Source of the DNA: Candidatus Aminicenantota bacterium
GTDB taxonomy: Bacteria > Acidobacteriota > Aminicenantia > JAMOAD01
DNA: 40,644 nt
Reading direction: 5' to 3'
NCBI GenBank assembly: GCA_027067555.1
Contig: JAMOVU010000082.1
Coordinates: forward strand, 1-40,644
A program made the position numbers and the translations under genes. The stretch's first letter is position 1, and the number at the start of each line of letters is the position of its first letter. Below, one piece after another: positions 7,193 through 29,380 of this stretch. Below the pieces are notes generated by a model. The model searched no databases. It saw only the letters and a program-made list of their open reading frames with translations, and was not told the DNA's origin.

Positions 7193-7221
7193 TTGCTTTT
7201 AGTTTTTTAAAGTGGTAAAAT
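7193..7221 (+). promoter_or_regulatory. Sigma70-type promoter giving a predicted leaderless mRNA
   Basis: TTGCTT (7193-7198), a 17-base spacer and TAAAAT (7216-7221). The expected start point, 6-7 bases after the -10 box, coincides with the ATG at 7227. No Shine-Dalgarno sequence lies between. Confidence 0.6.
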
Positions 7222-7226
7222 ATGCG

Positions 7227-9308
7227 ATGAAAAGATTTAAATTAATAATAATTTCAATATTTGTTTTAACTTTAAGTTTACAGGCTTATGTAGGCCCCGG
7301 TGCTGGTTTTGCTTTTTTGGGCTCATTCCTGTTTATTTTCCTGGCTTTTATAGTGGCTATATTTAATTTTATAACCTTTCCGATAAGGGCACTTATAAGA
7401 TTTTTTAAGAGATACAAAGCTCTTAAAAATGCGAGGGTTAAGAGAGTCGTAATTTTGGGTTTTGATGGAATGGATTTTAGTCTGACTGGAAAGTTAATCA
7501 AAAAAGGGTTACTTCCCAATTTTAAAAAGCTCAAAGAGGAAGGGACTTTTGCTCCTTTAAGGAGCACGGAGCCTCCGATTTCACCTGTTGCCTGGTCCAC
7601 TTTTGCAACTGGTGTTAACCCTGGAAAACACAATGTTTTTGACTTTTTAACAAGAGACCCTAACACCTATCTTCCGGCTCTTGCCTCAACAGAAATTATT
7701 CCTCCAAAAAAGTATCTGAACATGGGAAAGTATAAAATTCCTATTTCAAAACCTGTTATAGAATTACTAAGAAAGAGTAAAGCATTCTGGAAGATAACAG
7801 GAGAACATGGGATTTACTCGTCAGTTCTAAGGGTTCCTATTACTTTCCCTCCTGAGAAATTTTACGGTAATATGACATCGGGTCTCGGAACTCCAGACTT
7901 AAGAGGGACACAGGGAAGTTTTACATATATATCAGAAAAGAGTATGAATGAGGATTTTTCAATTTCAGACGGAGTTTCTGTTATATTAGAAAAATTGGAA
8001 GATGGTTTTATTGCTAAAATTCCGGGACCTGAACATCCGATGTTGAAGGAGAAGAAAAATCTTGAGGCTACAGTGAAAATAAGAAAGATAGATAAGAATA
8101 GAGTTGAAGTTGAGACTTCAGGAAAAAAGCATGTTTTAAAAAAAGGTAAACTTTCAGAATGGACAAAACTTGAGTTTGGCTCCGGGCTTATTAAAGTTTC
8201 CGGAATTGCAAGGTGGTTTCTGATTGATACAGAACCTTATCTTAAAATTTATCTTTCCCCGATAAATATTGATCCTGAAAAACCTGCTATGGATGTAAGT
8301 CATCCGAAGATATTTTCGGTTTATCTCTCAAAGATTTTCGGACCATTTGCTACATTGGGAATGGTTGAGGATACCTGGGCTTTGAATGAAGGGCTTCTTT
8401 CTGAAGAAGGTTACCTTGATCAGGTTTATACTGCTCAGGAAGAGAGGGAAAGGATTTTCTGGGATACTTTTAAAAAGGTAAAAGAAGGGCTTGTTGTATC
8501 AGTTTTTGAAGCTACAGACAGAATTCAGCATATGTTCTGGAGATATATGAACAATGAATCTCCTGCACCAAAGCCGGGGACAACACCTGAAATAGTTAAT
8601 GCAGTGCAAATCGTTTATCAAAAAATGGATGAGCTTGTCGGAAAAGTTCTTGAAAAATTGGGGAAGGATGATGCACTTATTATTGTTTCAGATCATGGTT
8701 TTAACAGGTTTGACAGAGGATTTAATGTGAACACCTGGCTTTATAAAGAGGGTTACCTTGCCCTCAAAGACGGTAAAACCAAGAGCGACAAGTGGTTTGC
8801 TGATGTTGATTGGAGTAAAACAAGGGCGTATGGAACCGGGTTAGGTGGGATATTTTTAAATATCAAGGGGAGAGAAAAGTACGGAATTGTTGAGAGAGGA
8901 GAAGAGGCGGAAAAATTAAAGCAAGAGATAAAGAGAAAATTGGAAAACCTTAAAGACCCGAAAACAGGGAAGAAAGCAATGGATATGGTATCCACAAGAG
9001 AAGAAATATATAAAGGAGCTTATGTTACGAATGCTCCTGATATTATTATTGGTTATGCAATAGGTTACAGGATTTCTTGGGAATCTGCTGTTGGGGAGGT
9101 TGGAGGAGATATTTTTGTTGATAATACGAGGTTGTGGAGCGGAGATCACTGCTTTACTTCAGAAACCGTTCCCGGTATATTCTTTTCAAACAAAAAAATA
9201 AATAGGAATGATCCTACCCTTGCCGATATTTCTCCGTCTGTTCTCTCTCTTTTCGGGATTAAGATTCCGGCTTTTATTGATGGGAGAGATCTGGAGGTAG
9301 GAAAATGA
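7227..9308 (+). CDS. Alkaline-phosphatase-superfamily phosphodiesterase/phosphotransferase, membrane-anchored (paralogue 1)
   Basis: A 693-residue protein. A signal-like helix (about residues 4-19) ends near LQA. It is followed by YVGPGAGF, a second helix (about 24-50), a strongly basic stretch and then the catalytic domain. The bi-metal site of the AlkP/NPP (type I phosphodiesterase) branch is complete. The ligands are Asp80 in GFDGMD, Ser119 as the likely nucleophile in PPISPVAW, Asp431 and His435 in TDRIQHMFW, Asp489-His490 in SDHGFN, and His641 in GDHC. The ATG at 7227 is used because a GTG at 7212 lies inside the promoter. The positive-inside rule places the catalytic domain in the cytoplasm, unlike paralogue 2. 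The substrate is unknown. Its stop overlaps the next gene by 4 bases. Confidence 0.88.
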   Translation: MKRFKLIIISIFVLTLSLQAYVGPGAGFAFLGSFLFIFLAFIVAIFNFITFPIRALIRFFKRYKALKNARVKRVVILGFDGMDFSLTGKLIKKGLLPNFKKLKEEGTFAPLRSTEPPISPVAWSTFATGVNPGKHNVFDFLTRDPNTYLPALASTEIIPPKKYLNMGKYKIPISKPVIELLRKSKAFWKITGEHGIYSSVLRVPITFPPEKFYGNMTSGLGTPDLRGTQGSFTYISEKSMNEDFSISDGVSVILEKLEDGFIAKIPGPEHPMLKEKKNLEATVKIRKIDKNRVEVETSGKKHVLKKGKLSEWTKLEFGSGLIKVSGIARWFLIDTEPYLKIYLSPINIDPEKPAMDVSHPKIFSVYLSKIFGPFATLGMVEDTWALNEGLLSEEGYLDQVYTAQEERERIFWDTFKKVKEGLVVSVFEATDRIQHMFWRYMNNESPAPKPGTTPEIVNAVQIVYQKMDELVGKVLEKLGKDDALIIVSDHGFNRFDRGFNVNTWLYKEGYLALKDGKTKSDKWFADVDWSKTRAYGTGLGGIFLNIKGREKYGIVERGEEAEKLKQEIKRKLENLKDPKTGKKAMDMVSTREEIYKGAYVTNAPDIIIGYAIGYRISWESAVGEVGGDIFVDNTRLWSGDHCFTSETVPGIFFSNKKINRNDPTLADISPSVLSLFGIKIPAFIDGRDLEVGK

Positions 9309-11278
9309 AAAGAAGAGAATTTTTAAAATTAAGCGGGTTCCTTTTAACTTTTCCCTCTGTTTTTACCCGCTCTTTAAAAGGAGAAAAGTTATACGATAAA
9401 GTTTTAATAATAGGGTTTGATGGTATGGACCCAAGAATTGCAATGAATTTGGTCGAACAGGGGAAAATGCCGAATTTAAGGAATTTCCTTAATTCACAGG
9501 CAACACTTTTAAAAATGATGTCAACACCACCACCTGCAAGTCCGGTGGCATGGGCAAGTTTTACTACTGGAAGGGATCCGGGAGCTCACGGTATATTTGA
9601 TTTTATACACAGAGATCCTGAAACATATATTCCTAAGTTTTCTATTGCCGATGCTGTACCACCGAAAAAGTTTTTAAAATTAGGGAGTTATAAAATTCCT
9701 CTCGATAGTGGTGATGTGCTTTTGAACAGGAAGACAAAACCATTCTGGGATTATATTCAGGATAATGAAATTGAAGCAACTGTTTTTAAAATACCCTCAA
9801 ACTATCCACCTTCTGATATGAGATTCGGAAGAGCGCTTTCGGGGATGGGAACTCCTGATGTTTTAGGCGGTTATGGTACTTACACTCTTTATACCACAGA
9901 TGAGGATGAAGCGAGAAAGGAATATTCGGGTGCCAATGTATCTTATGCTTATTTTGATGAAATGAATATGCTTGAGGGTGAAATAGAGGGACCTCCGAAT
10001 GCTCTAAAAGAGGATGGAGAGCCCACAATTGCCGAATTTAAAGCTTACTGGGATAGAAATCACAGAACTGCAAGAATCGATATTCAGGGTAAAGAGCTTT
10101 ATCTTAAAGAGGGAGATTTTAGTAAATGGATTGAAATTGAATTTGATATAATTCCTCATATAAAAAGTATAAAGGCAATAGTAAGGTTTTATCTTTTGGA
10201 TGCTCATGACAAATTCAGACTCTATATCTCTCCTCCTTCAATAGATCCTGCTGATCCCGCACAACCTATAAGTTCTCCCGATGATTATAGCAAAGAACTG
10301 GTTGAAAAAGTCGGTCTTTATCATACATTGGGACTTCCAGCTGATACAAAGGCTTTGAGCAATGAAACATTTAAGATGGAAAACTTTTTGGTTCAGGCAA
10401 ATACAATACTTGACGAAAGCAAGAAAATTTTTGAATATGAGCTTTCAAGATTTAATTCTTTAAAAAGAGGCTTGCTCTTTTTCTATTTTTCAAGTCTTGA
10501 TCAGGGTTCTCATATGCTCTGGTCATTAAGGGATCCCGAACATCCATTTTATCACCCTGATGTGGCAAAGGAATTTGGAGATCAGGTAGAATTACTTTAC
10601 CTTGAGTTTGATAAGATAATTGGAAAAACATTAAAATCGGTTCCAAAGGATACACCTATAATTATTCTTTCTGATCATGGTTTTAATAGTTTCAGAAGAA
10701 GGGTTAATGTCAACAGAATTTTGTATGAAGGCGGATTTTTAAAGCTAAATACTAATGAATTTCCGGCTTCTATTTTGGAAGAGGCCAATTGGGATGAAAC
10801 AAAAGCATATGCAATAGGGCTAAACGGTTTGTATATTAATTTGAAAGGAAGGGAGGCAAATGGTATTGTTGACCCCGCAGATAAAAGAGCGGTTCTTGAA
10901 GATATAAAAAAACTTTTGCTCTCTTATAAAGATCCTAAAACCGGTGAACCTGCAATCACAAAGGTTTTTATAACGGATGATGTCTTTGCTCATGATAATC
11001 CTAAAGTAATGCCTGATATAATTGTGGGCTTTAATCATCTTTACAGAGTTGATAATGATTCTGCTCTCGGTACTTTGGGAAAAGAGGCCATTACAGATAA
11101 TCTTGATTGGTGGGCAGGAGACCACTGTATTGATCCCCATTTTGTTATGGCAAGTTTAATTACAAATGTTAAAATAGATAAAAAAAGAACCCCTGTTATT
11201 TGGGACCTTGCTCCCACTGTGCTTAAGCTTTTTGGTATTGAGATTCCCTCTGATATGAGAGGGAAAAGTTTGATTTAG
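9305..11278 (+). CDS. Alkaline-phosphatase-superfamily phosphodiesterase/phosphotransferase with Tat-type signal (paralogue 2)
   Basis: A 657-residue paralogue of the preceding gene, overlapping it by 4 bases. The N-terminus MKRREFLKLSGFLLTF is a twin-arginine signal (RRxFLK plus a hydrophobic stretch), predicting export of a folded, metal-loaded enzyme. The metal and catalytic residues are all present: Asp39 in GFDGMD, Ser79 in PPASPVAW (aligned with the NPP threonine nucleophile), Asp399 and His403 in SLDQGSHMLW, Asp457-His458 in SDHGFN, and His607 in GDHC. The same order and spacing in both copies supports an old tandem duplication, with divergent export routes. No Tat genes lie in the window. 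The substrate is unknown; a lipid head group or glycan phosphodiester is possible. Confidence 0.88.
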   Translation: MKRREFLKLSGFLLTFPSVFTRSLKGEKLYDKVLIIGFDGMDPRIAMNLVEQGKMPNLRNFLNSQATLLKMMSTPPPASPVAWASFTTGRDPGAHGIFDFIHRDPETYIPKFSIADAVPPKKFLKLGSYKIPLDSGDVLLNRKTKPFWDYIQDNEIEATVFKIPSNYPPSDMRFGRALSGMGTPDVLGGYGTYTLYTTDEDEARKEYSGANVSYAYFDEMNMLEGEIEGPPNALKEDGEPTIAEFKAYWDRNHRTARIDIQGKELYLKEGDFSKWIEIEFDIIPHIKSIKAIVRFYLLDAHDKFRLYISPPSIDPADPAQPISSPDDYSKELVEKVGLYHTLGLPADTKALSNETFKMENFLVQANTILDESKKIFEYELSRFNSLKRGLLFFYFSSLDQGSHMLWSLRDPEHPFYHPDVAKEFGDQVELLYLEFDKIIGKTLKSVPKDTPIIILSDHGFNSFRRRVNVNRILYEGGFLKLNTNEFPASILEEANWDETKAYAIGLNGLYINLKGREANGIVDPADKRAVLEDIKKLLLSYKDPKTGEPAITKVFITDDVFAHDNPKVMPDIIVGFNHLYRVDNDSALGTLGKEAITDNLDWWAGDHCIDPHFVMASLITNVKIDKKRTPVIWDLAPTVLKLFGIEIPSDMRGKSLI

Positions 11279-11287
11279 GAGGTAAAA

Positions 11288-11476
11288 ATGTTTGGAAAAA
11301 AGGTAAAATTAAGCAAAGAGGTTTATGAAAAAGCCGAAGCTCTTATGGAAATCAGAGGGTATTCCTCAATGGAGGAACTTATAAATCATCTTATTGAAAA
11401 GGAGTTTCAGGAAATAAAAGAAGAAGGAGATGAAGAGGCAATAGAAAAATTAAAAGGACTCGGATATATTTCATAA
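11288..11476 (+). CDS. 62-residue ribbon-helix-helix-like protein with acidic linker and LGYI tail
   Basis: A small protein starting 9 bases after the phosphatase, behind AGGAGG. Residues 5-40 (KVKLSKEVYEKAEALMEIRG, then SSMEELINHLIEKE) have the strand-helix-helix pattern of MetJ/Arc RHH proteins. An acidic stretch EEGDEEAIEKL follows, and the C-terminus is LKGLGYIS. An L..LGYI end of this kind is, to my recollection, common at the C-termini of sulfatase and alkaline-phosphatase family proteins. It could be a regulator or a small partner of the two enzymes. The start and length are well supported by the RBS and by the following gene, which begins at the next base after the stop. Confidence 0.75.
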   Translation: MFGKKVKLSKEVYEKAEALMEIRGYSSMEELINHLIEKEFQEIKEEGDEEAIEKLKGLGYIS

Positions 11477-12313
11477 ATGACAAAATTTAATCTTTTTGTA
11501 ACAAAAGTTTTCGACTATATCCTTTACCCTTTCTCTTTTTTGAATCCATTTTGGGCTGTTTTTTTTCTAAGTTTTGTCTCTTCAATAGTGGTTCTTATTA
11601 TTTACAAGGCTGTTTCAAGTCCGGATAAAATTAAGGATGCAAAAGATAAAATAAAAGGCCACATACTTGCAATAAGAATTTACAGGGATCACTGGAAGGT
11701 ACTTCTTCTCTCTTTTTTTAAAAGCCTTTTTTACACTTTGAAATATTTTACACTGAATTTCTTCCCTATTGTCTTTATTCTCCCGATTCTGTTTTTTGTT
11801 TTTGCTCAGATGGAAGTCAGGTATGGTTACAGACCTTTTGTAAAAGGAGAGAAAGCAATTGTTAAGGTAAGATTGACGGATGATTTTGATCTTGAAACTT
11901 CGGATGTAAATTTAATTAAAAGTGATTATGTTAAAGAGAAAATACCTCCTGTGTTTGTCTATGCTTTGAATGAGGTTGATTATGTGTTAGAAATAAATAA
12001 GGATAGTTCTTTCGTCTTAGGGTTTGAGGTAAATGGAACAAAGTATGAAAAAAAATTTTCAGTGCTTCCCAAAATAGGCAATAAATCAGAGGCTTTGGGG
12101 ATTAAAACTTTTTTTGTGTCAACCCCTGAAGTCTTTCTTTATCCTGCGGAGAATAAAATCAAAGATAATTCTGATGTAAAATATATTTACACAAAATATC
12201 CTTCTTACAGGATAAACTTTTTAGGCACAAGACTTCATTGGCTGTGGCACTATCTCCTTTGGACACTAATTATAGTGTTAGCACTTAAAAACAAATTCGG
12301 AGTGGAATTTTAA
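11477..12313 (+). CDS. Membrane protein with Oxa1/EMC3-like topology and a large exterior domain
   Basis: A 278-residue protein whose ATG directly follows the previous stop (TAAATG). Predicted layout: a transmembrane helix at about 20-43; a basic amphipathic hairpin at about 45-85 rich in KD.IK repeats (SPDKIKDAKDKIKGHI); a second helix at about 88-112 ending in QMEVRYGYRPF; an exterior beta-rich domain at 113-250; and a third helix at 252-272. A helix, a cytoplasmic helical hairpin, then a helix is the core arrangement of the Oxa1/YidC/EMC3/DUF106 superfamily. I recall similar hypothetical proteins in Acidobacteriota and Planctomycetes, but I cannot verify homology here. Its position suggests service to the two phosphatases. 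Confidence 0.7.
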   Translation: MTKFNLFVTKVFDYILYPFSFLNPFWAVFFLSFVSSIVVLIIYKAVSSPDKIKDAKDKIKGHILAIRIYRDHWKVLLLSFFKSLFYTLKYFTLNFFPIVFILPILFFVFAQMEVRYGYRPFVKGEKAIVKVRLTDDFDLETSDVNLIKSDYVKEKIPPVFVYALNEVDYVLEINKDSSFVLGFEVNGTKYEKKFSVLPKIGNKSEALGIKTFFVSTPEVFLYPAENKIKDNSDVKYIYTKYPSYRINFLGTRLHWLWHYLLWTLIIVLALKNKFGVEF

Positions 12314-12330
12314 TATTTGACAGAAGTAGA

Positions 12331-12954
12331 GTGAAGAGAAAAGTTGTCTCCGGTGTGAGTCTGGCTTTTCTTTTATGGTTTATTACCTTTTATCTTAAAC
12401 CAGCTAATTTTTGGTTTTTGATGGGATTTTCAACTTTTTTCCTTTTAGTTTTTGTTTTTGTATTTGATAAAGAAATCTTTTCTGAATTAAAGCCTGAACC
12501 AAAATCATTTTTTTATGGCTTACTCTCAGCAGTTTTGCTGTATGGAGTTTTTTATATTGGTAATCTATTTCTCAAATATGTTTCAGCTTTTAATCTTTTA
12601 AAAAACAGAAGGATTCTCATAGAAAATATTTATGCAAACAAAGGGAATTTTTCACCCGTTTTTATCTCTCTTTTGATAATTTTTCCTATAGCTTTTGGTG
12701 AAGAAATATTTTGGAGAGGCTTTGTCCAAAGAAAAATGAACGTTCTGATCGGGAAGTGGAAGGCTCTCTTTATTACTGTGTTTTTTTATTCTATTGTTCA
12801 TGTTTTTTCATTGAACCCGGTTCTTATTCTTGCAGCCTTTGTTTGCGGAATATTTTGGGGCTTGATTTATTTGTATACAGAAAACATAAGAATAGTATTA
12901 ATTTCCCATATTTTTTGGGATTTATTGATTTTTATAATTTTCCCTATTTTCTGA
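12331..12954 (+). CDS. CPBP-family intramembrane glutamic protease (CAAX/Abi type)
   Basis: A 207-residue, multi-helix membrane protein with the full CPBP active-site set: Glu124-Glu125...Arg129 in GEEIFWR, His157 in FYSIVH, and His193...Asp197 in SHIFWD. Family members cleave prenylated or other membrane-bound peptides; bacterial substrates are mostly unknown. It starts with GTG 17 bases after the preceding gene, with no recognisable Shine-Dalgarno sequence, and is the last gene of this group. About 114 bases without a gene follow before the FecR-like gene. Confidence 0.88.
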   Translation: MKRKVVSGVSLAFLLWFITFYLKPANFWFLMGFSTFFLLVFVFVFDKEIFSELKPEPKSFFYGLLSAVLLYGVFYIGNLFLKYVSAFNLLKNRRILIENIYANKGNFSPVFISLLIIFPIAFGEEIFWRGFVQRKMNVLIGKWKALFITVFFYSIVHVFSLNPVLILAAFVCGIFWGLIYLYTENIRIVLISHIFWDLLIFIIFPIF

Positions 12955-15145: not shown

Positions 15146-16174
15146 ATGGGAATTTTTGATTGGTTTTTGGATCATTTTTCTTATGATCTTGCTATAGATC
15201 TCGGAACAGCTAATACACTTGTCTACATGAGAGGGAAAGGTATTGTTATCAGTGAGCCTTCAATCGTGGCATTGAATAAGCTTACAGGAAAACCGGAAGC
15301 AGTGGGATTAAGAGCGAAAGAAATGTTAGGAAAAACTCCTGCAAATATAGTCGCTATTCGACCTATGAAGGATGGAGTTATTGCTGATTTTGATGTGACT
15401 GAAAAGATGCTTGAATATTTTATAGACAAAGCAAGAGAAAAAAGGCATCTTTTAAGACCCCGTATTGTTATTGGTATTCCTTCAGGAATTACGCAAGTGG
15501 AAAAAAGGGCTGTTAAAGATGCTGCCTTCAGAGCAAGGGCAAGAGAAGTTTATCTTGTAGAGCAGGCAATGGCGGCAGCAATAGGAGCGGGGCTTCCTAT
15601 TGTGGAGCCTGCAGGTAATATGATTGTTGACATTGGAGGCGGAACAACGGATGTGGCCGTTATTTCTTTAGCTGGAATAGTGCATTCCCGTTCAATAAAA
15701 GTAGCTGGGAATGAAATGGATGAAGCTATCATTCATTATTTAAAGAAAAAATATAATCTTTTGATTGGAGAAAGATCCGCAGAACAAATAAAAATAAAAA
15801 TAGGGACTGCATACCCTTTACCTGAACCCTTGAATATGGAAATAAAGGGTAGAGATTTGAAAGAGGGAATTCCAAAAACAATTGTTATAAGTGATAGTGA
15901 AATTAGGGAAGCTTTAAAATCTCCTATTGAAGCTTTAATAGATGTGGTTAAAACCACGCTTGAGAATACTCCGCCGGAGTTAGCGGCTGATATTGTCGAT
16001 AGAGGGATAGTGTTGACTGGTGGAGGTTCTATGTTAAAGGCTCTTGACATAAGGTTAAGAGAAGAAACTCAGCTTCCTATTTTTACCACAGAGGACCCTC
16101 TTTCTTCCGTAGTTAAAGGGGCAGGTAAGATCCTTGAAGATATAAATCTTCTTAGAAAAGTAGCCGTAGAATAA
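15146..16174 (+). CDS. mreB: Rod-shape-determining actin homologue MreB
   Basis: A 342-residue protein, the normal MreB length. Phosphate-1 motif DLGTAN begins at Asp18, phosphate-2 DIGGGTTD begins at Asp162, and the adenosine-site GGGSML lies near residue 293. The amphipathic N-terminus MGIFDWFLDHFS is suited to membrane binding. It polymerises under the inner membrane and guides the elongasome built by the next four genes. A strong GAGGAGG lies 7 bases before the ATG. Confidence 0.98.
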   Translation: MGIFDWFLDHFSYDLAIDLGTANTLVYMRGKGIVISEPSIVALNKLTGKPEAVGLRAKEMLGKTPANIVAIRPMKDGVIADFDVTEKMLEYFIDKAREKRHLLRPRIVIGIPSGITQVEKRAVKDAAFRARAREVYLVEQAMAAAIGAGLPIVEPAGNMIVDIGGGTTDVAVISLAGIVHSRSIKVAGNEMDEAIIHYLKKKYNLLIGERSAEQIKIKIGTAYPLPEPLNMEIKGRDLKEGIPKTIVISDSEIREALKSPIEALIDVVKTTLENTPPELAADIVDRGIVLTGGGSMLKALDIRLREETQLPIFTTEDPLSSVVKGAGKILEDINLLRKVAVE

Positions 16175-16181
16175 TAAATTT

Positions 16182-16976
16182 ATGACAAGAAAGAAAGATA
16201 CCATCTTCTTCGTTATTTTACTTTTTATTTCATTGGTGGTATTATCTTTGAATTCTCCGGGAAGAAAAAATATAACAAGAATAAAAAAGGTCTTTTCTTA
16301 TCTTTATAGAGAAACGAGTACATTTTTTTCAAATATGGTTTTTTCAGTAGGTGATTATTTAAAAGCGAGCAAACTTCATAAAGAGACTTTTTATGAAAAT
16401 ATCAGATTAAAAAGAGAAATAATAAAATTAAAGGAGGAAAATGTTCTTTTAAGAGATTTCATTCTGAAAAAGGGGCTTAAAGTACCTATGAAAAAAGGTT
16501 TTTCAGCAATCGCAAGGGTTATTTCATGGGATCTTGAAGAACCATACAGAACTTTTTACATTAATAAAGGAAATAAAGATAAGATAGAGATAAATTCTCC
16601 TGTAGTAGATGAATATGGTTTTTTAGTGGGAAAAATTATTGAACCTTTATTTCCTCATGGAGCTACTGTTTTATTGATCTCGAATCCAGAGTTTGGAGTG
16701 GGAGTCAAAATAGGGGAAAAAGGAGTGCTGGGCATCCTTTTTGGAATGGGGATGGATAAAGGAATTGTTAAATACATTAGATTGACAACAAAGATAAAAA
16801 TAGGAGACCCTGTCTATACCTCTGGACTCGATATGACTTTTCCTGAAGGTTTGAAAATCGGAAATATTGTAGAAGTAAAGAAAGGTTATTATGCCATTGA
16901 AGCAATTTCTGATTTAAAGGCTTTAAAGCATAATCCGAGATATGTAGGAATATTAAAATATGAAAAGAATAGGTAG
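16182..16976 (+). CDS. mreC: Rod-shape-determining protein MreC
   Basis: A 264-residue protein with an N-terminal transmembrane helix (about 8-24), a coiled coil (about 60-95; IRLKREIIKLKEENVLLRDF) and the periplasmic double beta-barrel (about 105-262; SNPEFGVGVKIGEKGVLGIL). MreC links MreB/MreD to PBP2 and activates it. It begins 7 bases after mreB and overlaps mreD by 17 bases. No Shine-Dalgarno sequence precedes its ATG, so translation probably depends on coupling to mreB. Confidence 0.94.
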   Translation: MTRKKDTIFFVILLFISLVVLSLNSPGRKNITRIKKVFSYLYRETSTFFSNMVFSVGDYLKASKLHKETFYENIRLKREIIKLKEENVLLRDFILKKGLKVPMKKGFSAIARVISWDLEEPYRTFYINKGNKDKIEINSPVVDEYGFLVGKIIEPLFPHGATVLLISNPEFGVGVKIGEKGVLGILFGMGMDKGIVKYIRLTTKIKIGDPVYTSGLDMTFPEGLKIGNIVEVKKGYYAIEAISDLKALKHNPRYVGILKYEKNR

Positions 16977-17457
16977 CTTTTTTTTATTAAGCTTTGTTAT
17001 AGTTTTTCTTAATTATCTTTTCCAAAAAGCTTTTTTTAATTTTACTTCGTATTTAAGTTTAATTACTCTTTTTTTAGTTTTAGTAGCTTTTAATTCAAGG
17101 TTATCTAATAGAACGGTTCTTCTTTTAGCTTTTTTCTTAGGACTTATAAATGATTCTTTATCTTTTTCTCCTTTGGGTCTTTCTTCTTCTTCATTGGTGA
17201 TTATGGTTTTTTTTATAATTAAGATGAGGGAAAATTTTGTTTTTTCAAGGATTAAAGATAAAGCATTTTTAGGAATGGCGGGTGTTTTGTTAAAATCTTT
17301 TAGTGATATTTTACTTTCTTCTTTTTTTGAATATAAAATAAGTGTTTCCTATTTGAATATCCTTTTGATAAAACCCTTTATCTCATTCTTGCTTTTATTT
17401 TTAGTTTTCTTTTTTATAACAAAAGAGACGGATGATGATTTTCAATACAGAGTATAA
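16960..17457 (+). CDS. mreD: Rod-shape-determining membrane protein MreD
   Basis: A 165-residue, highly hydrophobic protein with about five transmembrane helices, the size and pattern of MreD. The segment AFFLGLINDSLSFSPLGLSS matches the conserved G...D...G.PLG-like region. The sequence is poorly conserved in the family, so the call leans on its position between mreC and mrdA, overlapping both (17 and 26 bases). Confidence 0.9.
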   Translation: MKRIGSFFLLSFVIVFLNYLFQKAFFNFTSYLSLITLFLVLVAFNSRLSNRTVLLLAFFLGLINDSLSFSPLGLSSSSLVIMVFFIIKMRENFVFSRIKDKAFLGMAGVLLKSFSDILLSSFFEYKISVSYLNILLIKPFISFLLLFLVFFFITKETDDDFQYRV

Positions 17458-19228
17458 AAGAAAGATTTTACTCCAGAGTAATAAAAGAAATTTAAAACTT
17501 TTATTTATTTTTATCCTATTCTTTATTTTTTTGATTTTCTTATTTTTTTGGAAAATTCAGGTAATTGATTATGAAAAATATTTTTTAGCAGCGCAGAGAA
17601 ATATTATAAGGGTTGAGAGGATATCTCCTTTAAGGGGACTTATAAAGGATTCTAAAGGAAATATTATTGCTGATAATAGACTTTCCTTTGACTTAATTAT
17701 TCCTAAAGAGAATATGATTTCTTCCAAAAGAAAGAGTACCGAGAAAGAAATAAAAGAGATTCTAAATATGTTGAAAAAGGGAGACAAATATGAGTTGAAA
17801 AATATGGGGACTTATTATTTAGTAAAAGAAGATATACCCTTGAATATAGCAAATTTTATTTTTTCAAACAGGAGGGAGTTTAGATATGTTTCAATAAGGG
17901 TCTCTCCCAGAAGACTTTATCCTCTGGGAGAAAGTTGTAGTAGTTTTATTGGATATATCGGTGAAGCTAATCTTAAGGAGATAAGAAAGTTTGGTTTAAA
18001 AACCGGAGATTTTGTTGGTAAATATGGATTGGAAAGGTATTATGAGAATGAGCTTAAGGGAAAAGCTGGTTATAAAGTTAAAGTTGTGAATAATCTTAAT
18101 ATTCTTGAAAGAATTGTGAGAGAGGTTCCGCCTGTGGCAGGAAAAACACTGACTCTTTCAATTAATTTGAGTCTTCAGAAGAAGGTAGAAGAGTTTATGA
18201 AAGAGGAAAATCTAATAGGCTCTACTATTGTATTAAACCCAAAAAATGGGGAAATCCTCTCTCTTGTCACTACTCCTCTTTTTAATCCTAATCTTTTTAC
18301 CTCCTATTTTTCCAAAAAAGATTGGGATAAACTGGTCAGTACAGAGGGAAAACCTCTTATAAACAAAGCAATAAGCGGTTTGTATCCAGCAGGTTCAATT
18401 TTTAAATTGGTTGTCGGACTTGCAGGTTTGGAAGAAGGACTTATAAATGAGAATACAATAGTGAATTGTTATGGTTATAAGGAAATTTATAATAAGATAT
18501 TTCACTGCTGGAATGCAGCCGGTCATGGCCCAATGAATATTACCAAGGCCATTGAACAATCTTGTGATGTTTATTTTTATGTTTTAGGTAAAAACCTAAA
18601 GATAGATCTCATTGAAAAATATGCAAAGATGTTGGGTCTTGGGAAGTACACGGGAATCGATTTGGTGGGTGAAAAGAGTGGGCTTGTCCCTTCAAGAGAA
18701 TGGAAATTTAAAAGATTCCATATTAAATGGTTTCCCGGAGAAACTATTTCAGTCGCAATAGGACAGGGGCCTTTATTGGTTACTCCGATTCAGATTGCTC
18801 AACTTTTTTCCATTATTGCAAACAGAGGCTTTTATTTTCCTCCCCATTTATTAAAAACCAGAAAAAATAAGAAGATTTTTGTAAAAATAAAAAGGGAAAA
18901 TTTTGAAAAAATAATAAAAGGAATGTGGCTTGTTGTAAATGGTGAGAAGGGTACCGGCAGGCTTGCAAAATTAGATGGAATAAATGTTTGTGGTAAGACG
19001 AGCACTGTTCAGGTTATTAGTAAAGAGACACTTAAAACAAAGGTGAAAAATAAAAAAGATAAAAGATGGCTTCACCATGCATGGTTTGGGGCTTTTGCTC
19101 CTTGCGAATCACCTGAAATTGTAGTAGTTTCAATGTTGGAGCATGCTGGAGGAGGAGGGGAAGTTGCCGCTCCATTGGTAAGAAAGGTAATGAAATATTA
19201 TTTTAATAATATAAAGGAAAACAGATGA
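17432..19228 (+). CDS. mrdA: Penicillin-binding protein 2, elongasome transpeptidase
   Basis: A 598-residue class B PBP with an N-terminal helix (about 22-44), a dimerisation domain (about 55-220) and a transpeptidase domain (about 240-590). The acylated Ser322 and Lys325 are in AGSIFK, and Ser377-Cys-Asp379 is the SxN-type motif. The third motif is Lys522-Thr-Ser524 (GKTSTVQ), where most PBP2 proteins have KTG. It cross-links glycan strands made by RodA, which is the next gene (4-base overlap). The GEKGTGRLAKLDG stretch before KTS is usual for the family. Confidence 0.95.
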   Translation: MMIFNTEYKRKILLQSNKRNLKLLFIFILFFIFLIFLFFWKIQVIDYEKYFLAAQRNIIRVERISPLRGLIKDSKGNIIADNRLSFDLIIPKENMISSKRKSTEKEIKEILNMLKKGDKYELKNMGTYYLVKEDIPLNIANFIFSNRREFRYVSIRVSPRRLYPLGESCSSFIGYIGEANLKEIRKFGLKTGDFVGKYGLERYYENELKGKAGYKVKVVNNLNILERIVREVPPVAGKTLTLSINLSLQKKVEEFMKEENLIGSTIVLNPKNGEILSLVTTPLFNPNLFTSYFSKKDWDKLVSTEGKPLINKAISGLYPAGSIFKLVVGLAGLEEGLINENTIVNCYGYKEIYNKIFHCWNAAGHGPMNITKAIEQSCDVYFYVLGKNLKIDLIEKYAKMLGLGKYTGIDLVGEKSGLVPSREWKFKRFHIKWFPGETISVAIGQGPLLVTPIQIAQLFSIIANRGFYFPPHLLKTRKNKKIFVKIKRENFEKIIKGMWLVVNGEKGTGRLAKLDGINVCGKTSTVQVISKETLKTKVKNKKDKRWLHHAWFGAFAPCESPEIVVVSMLEHAGGGGEVAAPLVRKVMKYYFNNIKENR

Positions 19229-20310
19229 AAAGGTATTTTAAGTATTTTAACTATTCCTTACTTTTTACTCCCCTATCAATAACAATAATTGGTATTTTTG
19301 TTCTGTATTCCATTTTTAAAGCGACAGGGCAGCCTTTTTTCGAAAGACAAATTGTTTGGTTAATTGTATCTCTTATTGCTTTTTTTATTTTTTCCATATT
19401 GAATTATAAATTTTTTCTAAACCTTGCTCCATCTCTTTATGTATTTTTAATTGTGGTTTTAACATTTTTAATTCTTTTTGGTAAAAAGATAGCCGGGACA
19501 AAGTCCTGGATTGGAGTGGGAGGTTTGGGGGTTCAACCATCTGAGTTTGGGAAAATAGTGGTTATACTTTTAATAGCCAGAATTTTTAAAAACTATTATA
19601 AGGGAGCTTTGAACTTTATTGATTTTTTTAAAGCAGGTCTTATTGTTGGAGTTCCGGCATTATTGGTTATTCTTGGGAATGATATGGGGACGGCTATGAC
19701 TTATTCTTTTATTCTTATTACATTAATTTTTATTTTGGGCGTTAGAAAAAATTTGCTCATTTTTATTGTTGTCGGAGCTATCCTTTTTTCTATAGGTTCC
19801 TGGAATTTTGTTTTAAAAGATTATCAGAAGAAGAGGATAAAAGTATTTTTGAATCCCCAATCAGATCCATTGGGAGTTGGTTATCATACTATTCAATCAA
19901 AGATTACCATTGGTTCAGGGGGGATTTCTGGTAAAGGGTTTTTAAAGGGAACCCAAAAGAAGTTAGGATTTCTTCCTGCCCAGCATACTGATTTTATACT
20001 CTCGGTTTATGCGGAAGAGTTCGGGTTTGTAGGGATAATAGTGCTAATTTTATTGTATACTTTTCTTTTTTATTCTATATTTAGGGTTGCTTATGTTGCA
20101 GAAGACATCTCTTCTTTATTGCTTGTTGGTTTAATTTTAGGGCAGATCTTTTTTCAATTCTTAATTAATATTTTAGTTAGTCTCGGAAAACTTCCGGTTG
20201 CTGGTATTACTTTGCCTTTATTCAGTTATGGTGGTTCTTCTTTGATTACGGTTTATTCTCTTCTTGGTATTGTTGAGGGAGTTCACATCTCAAAGTATAG
20301 CAGGGAGTAA
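19225..20310 (+). CDS. rodA: Peptidoglycan glycosyltransferase RodA (SEDS family)
   Basis: A 361-residue SEDS polymerase with about ten transmembrane helices. Typical segments are KSWIGVGGLGVQPSEFGKI, GNDMGTAMTY, GGISGKGFLKGTQKK, and FLPAQHTDFILSVYAEEFGF with the conserved HTDFI. The end PLFSYGGSSLI is diagnostic. It polymerises lipid II into glycan strands outside the inner membrane, paired with PBP2. AAGGA precedes the ATG, and the stop shares one base with the following gene. Confidence 0.97.
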   Translation: MKRYFKYFNYSLLFTPLSITIIGIFVLYSIFKATGQPFFERQIVWLIVSLIAFFIFSILNYKFFLNLAPSLYVFLIVVLTFLILFGKKIAGTKSWIGVGGLGVQPSEFGKIVVILLIARIFKNYYKGALNFIDFFKAGLIVGVPALLVILGNDMGTAMTYSFILITLIFILGVRKNLLIFIVVGAILFSIGSWNFVLKDYQKKRIKVFLNPQSDPLGVGYHTIQSKITIGSGGISGKGFLKGTQKKLGFLPAQHTDFILSVYAEEFGFVGIIVLILLYTFLFYSIFRVAYVAEDISSLLLVGLILGQIFFQFLINILVSLGKLPVAGITLPLFSYGGSSLITVYSLLGIVEGVHISKYSRE

Positions 20311-24081: not shown

Positions 24082-24513
24082 TCAATCTTTTTTTGATTTT
24101 AAAATTTTTTTTATGAAATATGATATTGAGAAAGGTTCGAGTCTTTTGATATTGATTATTTTACCTTTAAAGGATTTTATCTCATCTTTAGTGAAGTAGT
24201 TATCTCCTTCGCATTTCATGATTAAATCAGGCTTTACTTTTTCAATGGAATTTTTCAAGTTTTCCACGGGAATTACAAAATCCACAAATTCTATGGATAA
24301 AAGAATTTCTTTTCTTTCTTCAAAGGGAACTATGGGTCTTTTATCCTCTTTAAATTTGCTTACTGCTTTATCGCTTAATAGACCAACAACTAAAAATTCT
24401 CCTCTCTGTTTAGCTTTTTTTAGAAAATATATGTGCCCCGGGTGGATTATGTCAAAAGCTCCTGTGACAAAAACTTTAAAACCTTTAATATTTTCTAAAT
24501 TCGATTCCATCAT
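24082..24513 (-). CDS. RfaE2/TagD-like cytidylyl/adenylyl-transferase domain protein
   Basis: A 143-residue single-domain nucleotidyltransferase. The HxGH motif is in FDIIHPGHIYFLKKAK, and the segment RPIVPFEERKEIL resembles RfaE2 (ADP-heptose synthase domain) more than TagD. The family activates a sugar- or alcohol-phosphate with ATP or CTP. The KGGD-like element near residue 98 reads KCEGD, so the substrate is uncertain. Its start lies inside the 3' end of the Wzt gene (29-base overlap) in a different frame, implying translational coupling. The location supports a role in making a precursor for the exported glycan. Confidence 0.82.
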   Translation of the reverse strand: MMESNLENIKGFKVFVTGAFDIIHPGHIYFLKKAKQRGEFLVVGLLSDKAVSKFKEDKRPIVPFEERKEILLSIEFVDFVIPVENLKNSIEKVKPDLIMKCEGDNYFTKDEIKSFKGKIINIKRLEPFSISYFIKKILKSKKD

Positions 24514-25741
24514 CAAAATTCCACTGATGATTCATCCTGTAAACGCCAACATCTCTTTTGTTTGAATCAACTCTAAATTTGTGTAAAAGATGGTGATAAT
24601 CGTATGGGGTACCATCTTTCGAATGACTTGCAACATCAATAAAGTAAAACCCATTTATTAGATTGAGTTTTGATATTTTAAAAACAACTTTATGCAATCC
24701 TTTCTTAAGTTTTTTCCCCATAAGATTTTCAAGAAATGTATTTGTGCCATAAACTACATGTCCCTCTCCGTTTAATATGCCAATTCCGAAACCAAAATCA
24801 TCCTTTTCTTCGTTTGCCTTAACTTCTAACTCAACTATCATTCCATCTTCAGGAGAGTATATGAATTTTTCTTTTCCTGTAAGATCCTTAATTTTGACGG
24901 AAATTATTTCAACACTCTTATCTCCCCATCTTTTATTATCAACAGGGACAGATTCTTCCTTCTTTTCTTCTTTGTGTTTACTCTCTTCTTTTTCGCTTAT
25001 ATCCTGTAAATATGCGTCAACTACCTGCCGAGGATAACCTCTCATTACTATTTGACCTTTTTTCATCCAGATTGCCTCATCAGTGATTCTTGCCACTGTT
25101 TCAAGATCATGGCTTACAAAAACTATTGTTTTTCCGGATCTCTTAAACTCATTTATTTTATCTATACATTTGGGAACAAAGGAGGCATCTCCCACAGCAA
25201 GAACTTCATCTACAAGGAGGATGTCAGGATTTACATTGATGGCAACAGAAAAGCCTAATCTCATGAACATTCCTGATGAATAGGTTTTCACGGGTTGCTC
25301 AATGAAATCTTCGAGCTCTGCAAATCTTACAATCTCATCGTATTTCTCTTTTATCTCCTTTTTTGTGAGTCCAAGTATTATTCCATTTATAAAAATGTTT
25401 TCTCTTCCCGAAATTTCAGGATGAAAGCCGGCACCAAGTTCAATAAGCGCTGAAATTCTTCCCTTTGTAATAACTGTTCCCCTATTGGGTCTTATGATTC
25501 CTGCTATAATTTTGAGAAGTGTGCTTTTCCCCGACCCATTTTCTCCTATTATTCCTACTGTTTTCCCTTTTTCGATATCAAGAGATACATTGTTTACAGC
25601 CATAAAAACTTCTTCCGGTTTAAAATCCCTGAAGATAGTCCCATCTATGAAAGCACTTTTTAATGTGTTAAATCTATGTTTGCTTGAATATTTCCTGTAT
25701 GCTTTAACAATATTTCTTAAAGATATTGCTATCTCTTTCAT
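24485..25741 (-). CDS. Polysaccharide ABC-exporter ATPase with C-terminal Wzt-type domain
   Basis: A 418-residue protein. The ABC ATPase (about 1-235) has Walker A GENGSGKS, the signature YSSGMFMRLGFS and Walker B ILLVDEVLAVGD followed by the H-loop FVSHD. After a charged linker (about 236-262) the C-terminal beta domain (about 265-410) resembles Wzt_C, which in O-antigen exporters binds the finished chain end. It powers export of an undecaprenyl-linked glycan through the permease encoded just upstream. Its ATG overlaps the permease stop (TAATG), with GGAGG inside the permease end. Confidence 0.93.
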   Translation of the reverse strand: MKEIAISLRNIVKAYRKYSSKHRFNTLKSAFIDGTIFRDFKPEEVFMAVNNVSLDIEKGKTVGIIGENGSGKSTLLKIIAGIIRPNRGTVITKGRISALIELGAGFHPEISGRENIFINGIILGLTKKEIKEKYDEIVRFAELEDFIEQPVKTYSSGMFMRLGFSVAINVNPDILLVDEVLAVGDASFVPKCIDKINEFKRSGKTIVFVSHDLETVARITDEAIWMKKGQIVMRGYPRQVVDAYLQDISEKEESKHKEEKKEESVPVDNKRWGDKSVEIISVKIKDLTGKEKFIYSPEDGMIVELEVKANEEKDDFGFGIGILNGEGHVVYGTNTFLENLMGKKLKKGLHKVVFKISKLNLINGFYFIDVASHSKDGTPYDYHHLLHKFRVDSNKRDVGVYRMNHQWNFDDGIEFRKY

Positions 25742-26559
25742 TATACTTCCTCCGCAAAAGTATCCTTTACTCTATCAAAAAAATAATAACCTGCAAGGAA
25801 AAAGAGCAAAGAGACAATAAAAGTAACGCTTAACTTCTTCCAGTGAGGTAAAGACCCGAAAAAGAAAGAGTATTGGTAACCTTCTACTATGTGGGTGAAA
25901 GGATTTAAAAGAAGGGCTGTTTTTATTATCTTTGATTTTAATATTGGTTCAAAATTGAAGGGGTAAATTATGGGGGTTCCGAAAAACCAGAGTGTCAGGA
26001 GGTTTGCTATAAGATTTTGGACATCTTTAAAATGAACAGTCAAAGCTGCAACAAAAAAGGCAAGGCCAAGAGTAAAAAAGAATTGAATTATCATTACAGG
26101 GATTGAAAAAAATACATACCATGTAAGAGGATGACCGAGTATAATAAAAAATAGAATTAATATGGGGAGTCCCAGAAGGAAGTTTATGAAATTTGCAGTT
26201 ACGGTCATAATAGGTAAAACTTCTACCGGGAACAGGACTTTTTTAATAAGAGCGCCATGAATTGAAAGAACATTTCCTGCCTCTATTATTGAGGAGCTGA
26301 ACCAGATCCATGGTAAAAGACCGGTAAACAAGAAAAGGGAATAATCTAAAGCTGTTTTTAATTCCGGTATTGGATACCTTGGTTTTAAAATTATACCGAA
26401 AGCAAGGGTATAAACAAGCATAAGCAAAAGTGGGTTTAAAAAAGTCCATAGGAAACCTAAAACTGAACCTCTATATCTTGCTTTTAGCTCCCTTGAAACA
26501 AGATTGGAAATTAATAATCTGCTTCTATAGATAGTTTTAATCTTCTCAATTATAAACAT
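25741..26559 (-). CDS. Polysaccharide ABC-exporter permease (Wzm/ABC-2 type)
   Basis: A 272-residue ABC-2 membrane protein with six transmembrane helices and the amphipathic N-terminal stretch typical of Wzm/TagG (SRELKARYRGSVLGFLWTFL). It forms the dimeric channel that passes lipid-linked O-antigen-type or teichoic-acid-type glycans across the inner membrane. It overlaps the methyltransferase gene by 14 bases at its start and the ATPase gene by one base at its end. Confidence 0.93.
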   Translation of the reverse strand: MFIIEKIKTIYRSRLLISNLVSRELKARYRGSVLGFLWTFLNPLLLMLVYTLAFGIILKPRYPIPELKTALDYSLFLFTGLLPWIWFSSSIIEAGNVLSIHGALIKKVLFPVEVLPIMTVTANFINFLLGLPILILFFIILGHPLTWYVFFSIPVMIIQFFFTLGLAFFVAALTVHFKDVQNLIANLLTLWFFGTPIIYPFNFEPILKSKIIKTALLLNPFTHIVEGYQYSFFFGSLPHWKKLSVTFIVSLLFFLAGYYFFDRVKDTFAEEV

Positions 26560-27271: not shown

Positions 27272-27719
27272 CTTTTTTTATTTTGCTGTCAATAATAAAT
27301 GTCACAGGTCCGTCATTTATTAAAGAAACTTCCATCATTGCTCCGAAAAGACCGTCCTTTACAGGGATATTGTATGTTCGGAGTTCTTTTAAAAATTTTT
27401 CGTAAAATATCTTTGCTTTTTCAGGTGGCATAGCTCTTCCGAAGTCCGGTCTTCTTCCCTTTTTAATTTTTGAGGTAAGAGTAAATTGAGAAATAGATAA
27501 AATTTCTCCATTTATATCGAGTATAGATAAATTCATTTTATTTTTTTTATCTGGGAATATCCTTAAATTTACAATTTTGTTTGCGACAAACTTTAAATCT
27601 TTTTCACTGTCATCTTTTTCAATTCCAACTAATATCAGGATTCCTTTTTTAATAGAGTTTATAATTTTGTTATTAACAGATACAGAAGCTCCTTTAACTC
27701 TTTGTATTACAGCTATCAT
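27258..27719 (-). CDS. dtd: D-aminoacyl-tRNA deacylase
   Basis: A 153-residue protein, the usual DTD length. It begins MIAVIQRVKGASVSV, and both active-site signatures are present: SQFTL near residue 78 and the Gly-cisPro loop NDGPVTF near residue 136. It hydrolyses D-aminoacyl-tRNA (and Gly-tRNA-Ala) as a proof-reading step in the cytoplasm. It overlaps the preceding gene by 4 bases and the following one by 14 bases. Confidence 0.96.
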   Translation of the reverse strand: MIAVIQRVKGASVSVNNKIINSIKKGILILVGIEKDDSEKDLKFVANKIVNLRIFPDKKNKMNLSILDINGEILSISQFTLTSKIKKGRRPDFGRAMPPEKAKIFYEKFLKELRTYNIPVKDGLFGAMMEVSLINDGPVTFIIDSKIKKDGTK

Positions 27720-29380
27720 CTTTTATCCTCCGAATAAGAAAAAAATATTGGATTCTCTTTTATGTAATCTTTTTTGAACATTTCCAAAGTAAAGTATTCG
27801 TTGGATGAATAGGGAACCGGAAGTTGGAAATAGTAAGCAATCATAGGGAAAATATTTAAGAATGAAAAATTTTTAAGAATGTGATTCTTTCTTATTCCGT
27901 TTCCATAGATAAGAAGGACACCCTCGGGAGAACTTGATATTTTTGCTGATAAATTTTCTTTTTTTAGGAAATTATTAATCATTTGATCAAGGGGATCGAG
28001 AGGGCTTACTCCAAAAGATGAATTTACAATTAAAATATCATTGCTTTTTAAATTTAAGAGTATTCTACCAATATATTGATCTATATATTGGTAATATTTT
28101 TCAAGTATTCCTCCATATTTGTGAATTTCTTCCTCTGAGACGGATGAATAGTATTCTGGAAAGGTATATTTATAAAATCTTAACTCTGCATCTAATAGTC
28201 CATCTATATATAGGAAAAAGAATCTTGATTTTTGAGGATTGTTTAGGTGTTGTAGAAAAAGGGAGAATCTTTGTTCGTCAAATATAATATCTTTCTTTAA
28301 AGATTGAATTAGAGGAGTATCATTGAGTTCGAGTTCATCAAAGGGAGAAGGTAGCTGGGAAGTGCTTTTTTTCGGAAAAGAAAATTCTTTTTCTTCTTTT
28401 AAAAAGCGAATTTTAACACTTTTTATATTAAATTTTTCGAAAAACTGGAAAATATTTTTCCTGTATTTAGGGAAAGGTTTTGAATAGAGCTTTTTTATAA
28501 AGCCTAACTTTTCTAATGATTTTAAAAAGAATCCATTGGATAAAAGATAAGGAGAAAATTCAAAGGAGGAGGAAAAGGATTTTTTCCAGAAAGAATACAT
28601 AAGGTTTTGTGATGGATAAACTCCTGTTATATATGAATAATATGCAGAACACTTATTGATTGGTTCCAATGTTTTTGTTCTTGACCAAACACCATTTTCT
28701 ATAAGCCACCCGAAATTTGGTAATTTCCCGTTGGAAATTAAAGGAAAGATGAAATCATAGGAAAGCCCTTCTATATAAAGATTGATTACTCTCCTTTTTT
28801 TATTTAAAACAAAAGTATTGCCAGTTTTACTTTTTATAGAGGGGTTTATGTTTATATCTATTAATTTTTTTTCAAACAATCTAAAATTAGTATAGCTTAA
28901 TAAAAAAATTATTATCAATATGGCGATGAGAAAAGGGCTTTTTTTCTCCTTTCCTTCCTTTGCAAAAGCATTCCTTTCATAAGCGAATAGAATAAGAATA
29001 CCAATAAAAATAATAATGTTTAAAATAATTTCCATTTTAAGGGGGGAATAAATATAGTGGAAATAGGTATAATAATTAATAATATAAGCAAAGAGTAAGT
29101 AGGAAAACCCCACTCTTAAAAGGGTGAAGAAATAAGATAGTGTGAAAAAATCAATGGAATAATTTTCGTGAGCTATAAAATTGTAGATTCTTATATATAT
29201 GATAGTAGAAAGATAAAAAATTATAAAAAACAGAGCAGAGAAAATAAGTGTATTGGAATTAACAGTGAATTTTTTAAAGGAGAGGTAAGGAAAGTTTAAA
29301 GTAAGGAGAATATTCCATGAAAAAAAAATTAAAATACCAGCACCTGCTAATGAATAAAATGTGTGTTTTGCTATTTTCAA
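27716..29380 (-). CDS. Polytopic membrane protein with a degenerate alkaline-phosphatase-superfamily domain
   Basis: A 554-residue protein with five predicted transmembrane helices (about 8-30, 43-65, 77-103, 116-135, 149-165) and an exterior domain (about 180-554). Its start aligns with the two phosphatases at 7227 and 9305: LISNGKLPNF matches LIKKGLLPNF, and YSYITGVYPSQN matches STFATGVNPGKH. The catalytic set is lost: the first metal Asp is Glu204, the nucleophile Ser is Lys243, and the SDHGF metal motif reads NSSFG (Ser454, Ser455). It is probably a pseudoenzyme with a binding or structural role in envelope glycan biology. It starts with TTG, 3 bases after the FHA gene, with only a weak SD. 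Confidence 0.78.
   Translation of the reverse strand: MKIAKHTFYSLAGAGILIFFSWNILLTLNFPYLSFKKFTVNSNTLIFSALFFIIFYLSTIIYIRIYNFIAHENYSIDFFTLSYFFTLLRVGFSYLLFAYIINYYTYFHYIYSPLKMEIILNIIIFIGILILFAYERNAFAKEGKEKKSPFLIAILIIIFLLSYTNFRLFEKKLIDININPSIKSKTGNTFVLNKKRRVINLYIEGLSYDFIFPLISNGKLPNFGWLIENGVWSRTKTLEPINKCSAYYSYITGVYPSQNLMYSFWKKSFSSSFEFSPYLLSNGFFLKSLEKLGFIKKLYSKPFPKYRKNIFQFFEKFNIKSVKIRFLKEEKEFSFPKKSTSQLPSPFDELELNDTPLIQSLKKDIIFDEQRFSLFLQHLNNPQKSRFFFLYIDGLLDAELRFYKYTFPEYYSSVSEEEIHKYGGILEKYYQYIDQYIGRILLNLKSNDILIVNSSFGVSPLDPLDQMINNFLKKENLSAKISSSPEGVLLIYGNGIRKNHILKNFSFLNIFPMIAYYFQLPVPYSSNEYFTLEMFKKDYIKENPIFFSYSEDKR

Follow-up and report, generated by a model that had tools for sequence, protein, structure and literature searches.

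A conserved four-gene unit of Acidobacteriota with paired AlkP-superfamily enzymes, an RHH-like small protein and an Oxa1-like membrane protein

Four adjacent genes in the genome of a Candidatus Aminicenantota bacterium (GenBank assembly GCA_027067555.1) constitute a conserved unit of Acidobacteriota that is inherited together with its order kept, a conclusion that is well supported across the genomes compared. The stretch of DNA analyzed, referred to here as the window, covers the 40,644 nucleotides of contig JAMOVU010000082.1. The unit encodes two enzymes of the AlkP superfamily (AlkP1 and AlkP2), a ribbon-helix-helix-like small protein (RHH62) and an Oxa1-like membrane protein (M278). No paper on this module was found in the open-access literature, and a gene set that is obligately linked throughout a major phylum suggests an envelope pathway yet to be described.

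Composition and inheritance of the unit

All genes of the locus lie on the plus strand. AlkP1 (7227..9308, with an alternative GTG start possible at 7212) overlaps AlkP2 (9305..11278) by 4 bp, and RHH62 (11288..11476), which has a strong AGGAGG site, follows after a gap of 9 bp. The ATG of M278 (11477..12313) abuts the stop codon of RHH62, and a gap of 17 bp separates M278 from a gene for a CPBP/Rce1-like protease (12331..12954), the product of which exceeds the Pfam cut-off for PF02517. A preliminary description of this DNA had presented this five-gene arrangement, and all of its coordinates, overlaps and gaps were confirmed. The single promoter that the description had placed ahead of the five genes is putative: a scan for sigma-70-type sites, in which the site count equaled that in shuffled sequences, found none on the plus strand upstream of AlkP1.

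The same description had proposed an undescribed module and had pointed to homologues scattered without each other in related genomes as the observation that would speak against it. When 396 Acidobacteriota genomes were surveyed, the four genes other than the protease gene were found to stay together. M278 is present in 101 of them, and strong RHH62 matches were obtained in exactly these 101 and in no other genome, far more often than chance would give. The genomes share ancestry, so that P-values computed for this co-occurrence overstate their independence, and the weight lies on the zero exceptions among the 101. AlkP1 orthologues are present in 96 of the M278 genomes and in two others. The canonical order is kept in 53 of the 57 loci that hold all four genes (exceptions, L101, L106, L112 and L120). 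AlkP2, RHH62 and M278 stand together in every mapped relative locus, with AlkP1 upstream in most; in one genus, AlkP1 is located on a separate contig (L037–L039), and in some families a third AlkP of about 430 aa (AlkP3) is placed ahead of the unit. M278 was detected in 36 of 40 relatives. The distribution of the unit is known within the Acidobacteriota sampling: a wider genome scan returned only two loci of the same genus, and a plasmid search returned no M278. As far as these four genes are concerned, the undescribed module put forward in the preliminary description is supported.

The protease gene, which had been counted as a fifth member, was rejected. It adjoins the unit only in the window and in one genome of the same genus (L031), and was detected neither at the other locus of this genus (L032) nor at any of the 33 other loci of the class, placing it next to the conserved unit and outside it. 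Elsewhere in the window, an ordinary mreB-mreC-mreD-pbp2-rodA cell-shape cluster (15146–20310, genes named by eye) follows genes of FecR-like and GGDEF-like type, and is unlinked to the module in other genomes.

Two AlkP-superfamily enzymes on predicted opposite sides of the membrane

Both AlkP proteins score well above the cut-off of 23 bits for PF01663, AlkP1 with 109 bits and AlkP2 with 111 bits. The catalytic residue of AlkP1 is assigned to Ser119 of the SPVAW motif (7581..7583, plus strand), which is invariant in 24 homologues, and that of AlkP2 to Ser79 (9539..9541, plus strand) from an alignment of homologues. The other ligand positions are D80, D431, H435, D489, H490 and H641 in AlkP1, and D39, D399, H403, D457, H458 and H607 in AlkP2. 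Metal ligands and Ser nucleophile are conserved in both proteins across 24–25 homologues, and the two are probably active enzymes, in agreement with the preliminary description.

The two enzymes are predicted to work on different sides of the membrane. The N-terminus of AlkP1 comprises two hydrophobic segments flanking the sequence YVGPGAG, followed by a K/R-rich linker that averages 8.5 K/R versus 0.2 D/E; because of this linker and the positive-inside rule, the catalytic domain of AlkP1 is predicted to be cytosolic, with a two-helix N-terminal anchor. AlkP2 bears a Tat-type signal (MKRREFLK), and of 66 homologues, 43 begin with a twin-Arg signal and 13 with a lipobox-like one; AlkP2 is accordingly predicted to be periplasmic, exported via Tat or as a lipoprotein. 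The label of envelope enzymes therefore suits AlkP2 but does not plainly suit AlkP1. The predicted structure of AlkP2 was unusable (pLDDT 35). The YVGPGAG sequence itself (AlkP1 residues 21–27, window 7287–7307) is found in 54 of 60 AlkP1 proteins.

These features bear on one alternative, in which lipids or lipid-linked glycans have phospho-groups removed or transferred by the AlkP pair, the sulfation genes described below being mere frequent neighbors in surface-glycan regions. PF01663 is a phosphodiesterase/pyrophosphatase family, and the PDB neighbors of the AlkP proteins are phosphodiesterases of the NPP type. Moreover, the formylglycine sulfatase motif (C/S-x-P-x-R) is missing from all aligned AlkP1 and AlkP2 sequences, which carry SPVAW with Ser as the nucleophile. 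On plasmids of haloarchaea and Nostoc, distant homologues of the AlkP proteins lie in glycan clusters, and some of these clusters, such as those in Nostoc, are devoid of sulfation genes; one plasmid glycan cluster contains sulfatases and a gene of the PAPS-reductase family. Once the neighborhood of the unit is taken into account, we regard such phospho-group remodeling as rather unlikely.

Additional AlkP genes were observed in the same genome. One, whose PF01663 product starts with a membrane region of several helices, is located on the minus strand of the window (27716–29380) and clusters with a Wzt_C-type ABC polysaccharide exporter (24488–26559) and an FHA protein. On contig C107 (L066:7375-8697), an AlkP3 homologue that has no signal peptide is found among genes for an NDP-sugar epimerase and glycosyltransferases.

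M278, a distant Oxa1-superfamily protein

The profile of the M278 family has a single significant match in the PDB, the archaeal protein MJ0480 (E 8e-8, and 2.5e-9 with 48 sequences). By this family profile, M278 is a distant member of the Oxa1 superfamily, resembling the archaeal YidC/DUF106 proteins, and the Oxa1/EMC3-type assignment made in the preliminary description is borne out. EMC3_TMCO1 (PF01956) is the Pfam family that members match most often, weakly and in 9 of 24 relatives or 9 of 48 in a larger set, and the window protein has no match above any Pfam cut-off, PF01956 included. On the plus strand, TM1, TM2 and the cytosolic, positively charged helical stretch between them (aa 25–109, 11549..11803) are co-linear with MJ0480; TM3 (about aa 249–273, 12221..12295) is co-linear with the C-terminal helix of MJ0480, a correspondence that is weak and not significant alone. 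An inserted β domain (about aa 120–240, 11834..12196) appears in the AlphaFold model, which is weak overall (mean pLDDT 60) and confident at about aa 120–195, an Ig-like part with pLDDT near 80. Foldseek with this model yielded Ig-like matches only. The TM pattern and charge would fit a three-TM core with a cytosolic helical hairpin, which the model is too weak to show. From its sequence, M278 is predicted to have three membrane spans, a positively charged portion in the cytosol and an Ig-like domain in the periplasm.

In the literature, YidC is listed for prokaryotes and EMC3, TMCO1 and GET1 for eukaryotes, with prokaryote members of PF01956 treated as archaeal (PMC8675477), and published surveys assign the DUF106/PF01956 branch to archaea and eukaryotes (PMC8887752, PMC8675477). 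The presence in Bacteria of an EMC3/archaeal-YidC-like protein other than YidC is relevant to how the Oxa1 superfamily evolved.

RHH62 and its C-terminal tail

RHH62 from the window has no hit above the Pfam cut-off. Among 23 relatives, nine match RHH_1 weakly over about residues 6–42 (best, 1.8e-4; NikR, 0.03). The earlier designation as an RHH-like protein of 62 residues agrees with this weak resemblance of the family to RHH_1. A role as a type II antitoxin was considered and rejected, given the weak matches, the lack of an adjacent toxin gene and the constant pairing with AlkP and M278.

RHH62 ends in a C-terminal tail that reads LKGLGYIS in the window (11450..11473, plus strand) and is near-invariant as LxGLGYIS in the family. 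In related loci, a C-terminal LxxLGY is carried by 79 of 81 RHH proteins, 4 of 6 CysD proteins, 8 of 23 sulfatases and 10 of 22 APS kinases, the last count being inflated by APS kinases that end naturally in a GY-containing helix; AlkP1-like proteins (1/59) and other genes (1/720) of the same loci almost never carry it. In L096, L133, L149, L150, L153, L158, L168 and L169, the APS kinase tail looks like an extension. The tail is offered as a candidate short docking motif common to sulfate-handling proteins. On contig C50 of the window's genome (L067:6499-7890), an AlkP with a lipobox-like signal ends in LKTIGYI, a variant of the tail.

RHH proteins are usually transcription factors, which would agree with a role in protein biogenesis. 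In this view, AlkP1, unusual as an AlkP for being cytosolic and anchored by two helices, would need M278 as the insertase that puts it into the membrane, and RHH62 would be a DNA-binding autoregulator. The membership of M278 in the Oxa1 superfamily and the stop-start coupling of RHH62 and M278 are compatible with this arrangement. However, the genome already encodes a separate, ordinary YidC, an insertase dedicated to one substrate would be unusual, and the sharing of the tail with enzymes suggests a protein–protein role for RHH62 beyond DNA binding, making this explanation very improbable.

Sulfation genes in the neighborhood of the unit

Outside Aminicenantia, at least one PAPS-synthesis or sulfotransferase gene lies beside the unit in 28 of 37 loci and in 16 of 23 families within the fetched stretches; seven families show no sulfation gene, in some cases because their contigs are short. 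The neighbors encode APS kinase, ATP sulfurylase, CysD, CysN or CysNC, sulfatases and sulfotransferases of one 200-aa family (Sulfotransfer_3), in which a PAPS-type P-loop is conserved, and identities were checked by family for APS_kinase, ATP-sulfurylase, the PAPS_reduct domain of CysD type, CysN and Sulfotransfer_3. With roughly one APS kinase gene in each genome, its adjacency to the unit by chance is expected in under 1% of loci. It should be noted that CysD, CysN and APS kinase can also serve assimilatory sulfate reduction. Phospholipid genes are absent from the recurring neighbor families that were identified.

The link between the unit and sulfation is hence strong by context outside Aminicenantia and indirect within it. 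The earlier suggestion of a machine for modifying phosphodiester-bearing lipids or glycans has accordingly been revised, the neighborhood favoring PAPS-dependent sulfation and glycan genes over generic phosphodiester lipids. The same neighborhood weighs against phospho-group remodeling, in that the genes beside the unit in 28 of 37 loci are specifically those for PAPS synthesis and sulfotransferases, the recurring neighbor families that were identified include none for phospholipids, and RHH–AlkP pairs recur within PAPS operons.

At the Aminicenantia loci, the window included, no sulfation genes are found beside the unit. The window's genome lacks the sulfotransferase orthologue; 2 of 40 Aminicenantia have it, and in each of these it directly adjoins an RHH-LGY gene. 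This class also has weaker RHH-LGY paralogues, in operons that combine PAPS genes with the gene for a cytosolic AlkP. This second operon type, with an AlkP of about 460 aa (AlkP460), is found in Aminicenantia and a related group (L149, L150, L153, L154, L156, L158, L159 and L164), and takes forms such as RHH-ATP sulfurylase-AlkP460-APS kinase and RHH-AlkP460-APS kinase-PHP-AlkP3-radical SAM. A 3',5'-nucleotide bisphosphate phosphatase belongs to the PHP-domain proteins, and the PHP-domain protein in the latter form would fit PAP recycling.

Such operons invite the idea that the AlkP proteins of this group act on PAPS directly, as sulfuryl transferases or PAPS/PAP hydrolases, with RHH proteins sensing or regulating the PAPS supply. 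AlkP460 and AlkP3 would share the cytosol with PAPS because they have no signal peptides, and the RHH-SAT-AlkP460-APSK operon of L156 has no ordinary sulfotransferase alongside, although one could be encoded elsewhere. On the other hand, AlkP2 is predicted to be periplasmic, where PAPS is absent, and we know of no AlkP-fold PAPS sulfotransferase. Direct PAPS chemistry is, on balance, quite unlikely.

Proposed function

Our preferred reading is of a single membrane-associated machine in Acidobacteriota, encoded by the four genes and serving a pathway in which a sulfated envelope glycan or glycolipid is made or processed, a proposal for which we judge belief and doubt to be about evenly matched; the AlkP active sites do not reveal the substrate. 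The glycan genes around AlkP homologues, on the plasmids and on contig C107, speak for this reading. In such a machine, AlkP1 and AlkP2 would transfer or hydrolyze a phosphate or sulfate ester on a glycan intermediate bound to the membrane, working on its opposite faces, and M278 might be the scaffold or insertase-like partner that holds them together. RHH62 would be a cytosolic coupling or regulatory subunit, its LGYIS tail being a docking motif that APS kinase, CysD and sulfatases also carry. A more ambitious version, which we consider very unlikely, makes M278 the representative of a second bacterial Oxa1-superfamily lineage besides YidC. As the core, within the membrane, of a machine for sulfation, it would couple a cytosolic and a periplasmic AlkP-fold transferase that themselves carry out sulfuryl transfer, with the LGYI tail recruiting sulfate-activating enzymes and sulfatases. 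With the proposal of a sulfated-glycan machine, a connection to sulfated surface molecules of Acidobacteriota becomes testable.

Comparison with known systems

AlkP1 and AlkP2 share with the type I phosphodiesterase/nucleotide pyrophosphatase enzymes of PF01663 all catalytic ligands and an above-cut-off family match, but differ in forming a pair of paralogues predicted to lie across the membrane from each other, in their large inserts and in having no characterized close relative in the PDB. RHH62 resembles the ribbon-helix-helix proteins (CopG/RHH_1 and the N-terminus of NikR) through its weak profile match, from which it is set apart by the constant tail and the obligate association with AlkP and M278 genes. 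M278 would have in common with MJ0480 and EMC3/TMCO1 the succession of TM1, charged cytosolic helical region, TM2 and a third C-terminal TM, whereas it is bacterial, carries about 80 extra residues as the Ig-like domain between TM2 and TM3, falls under the Pfam cut-off and is encoded alongside AlkP genes. In the low-salt N-glycan sulfation of Haloferax, which involves Agl7, a lipid-linked sugar is sulfated at the membrane, as envisaged here, the parallel being functional only (PMC3871713).
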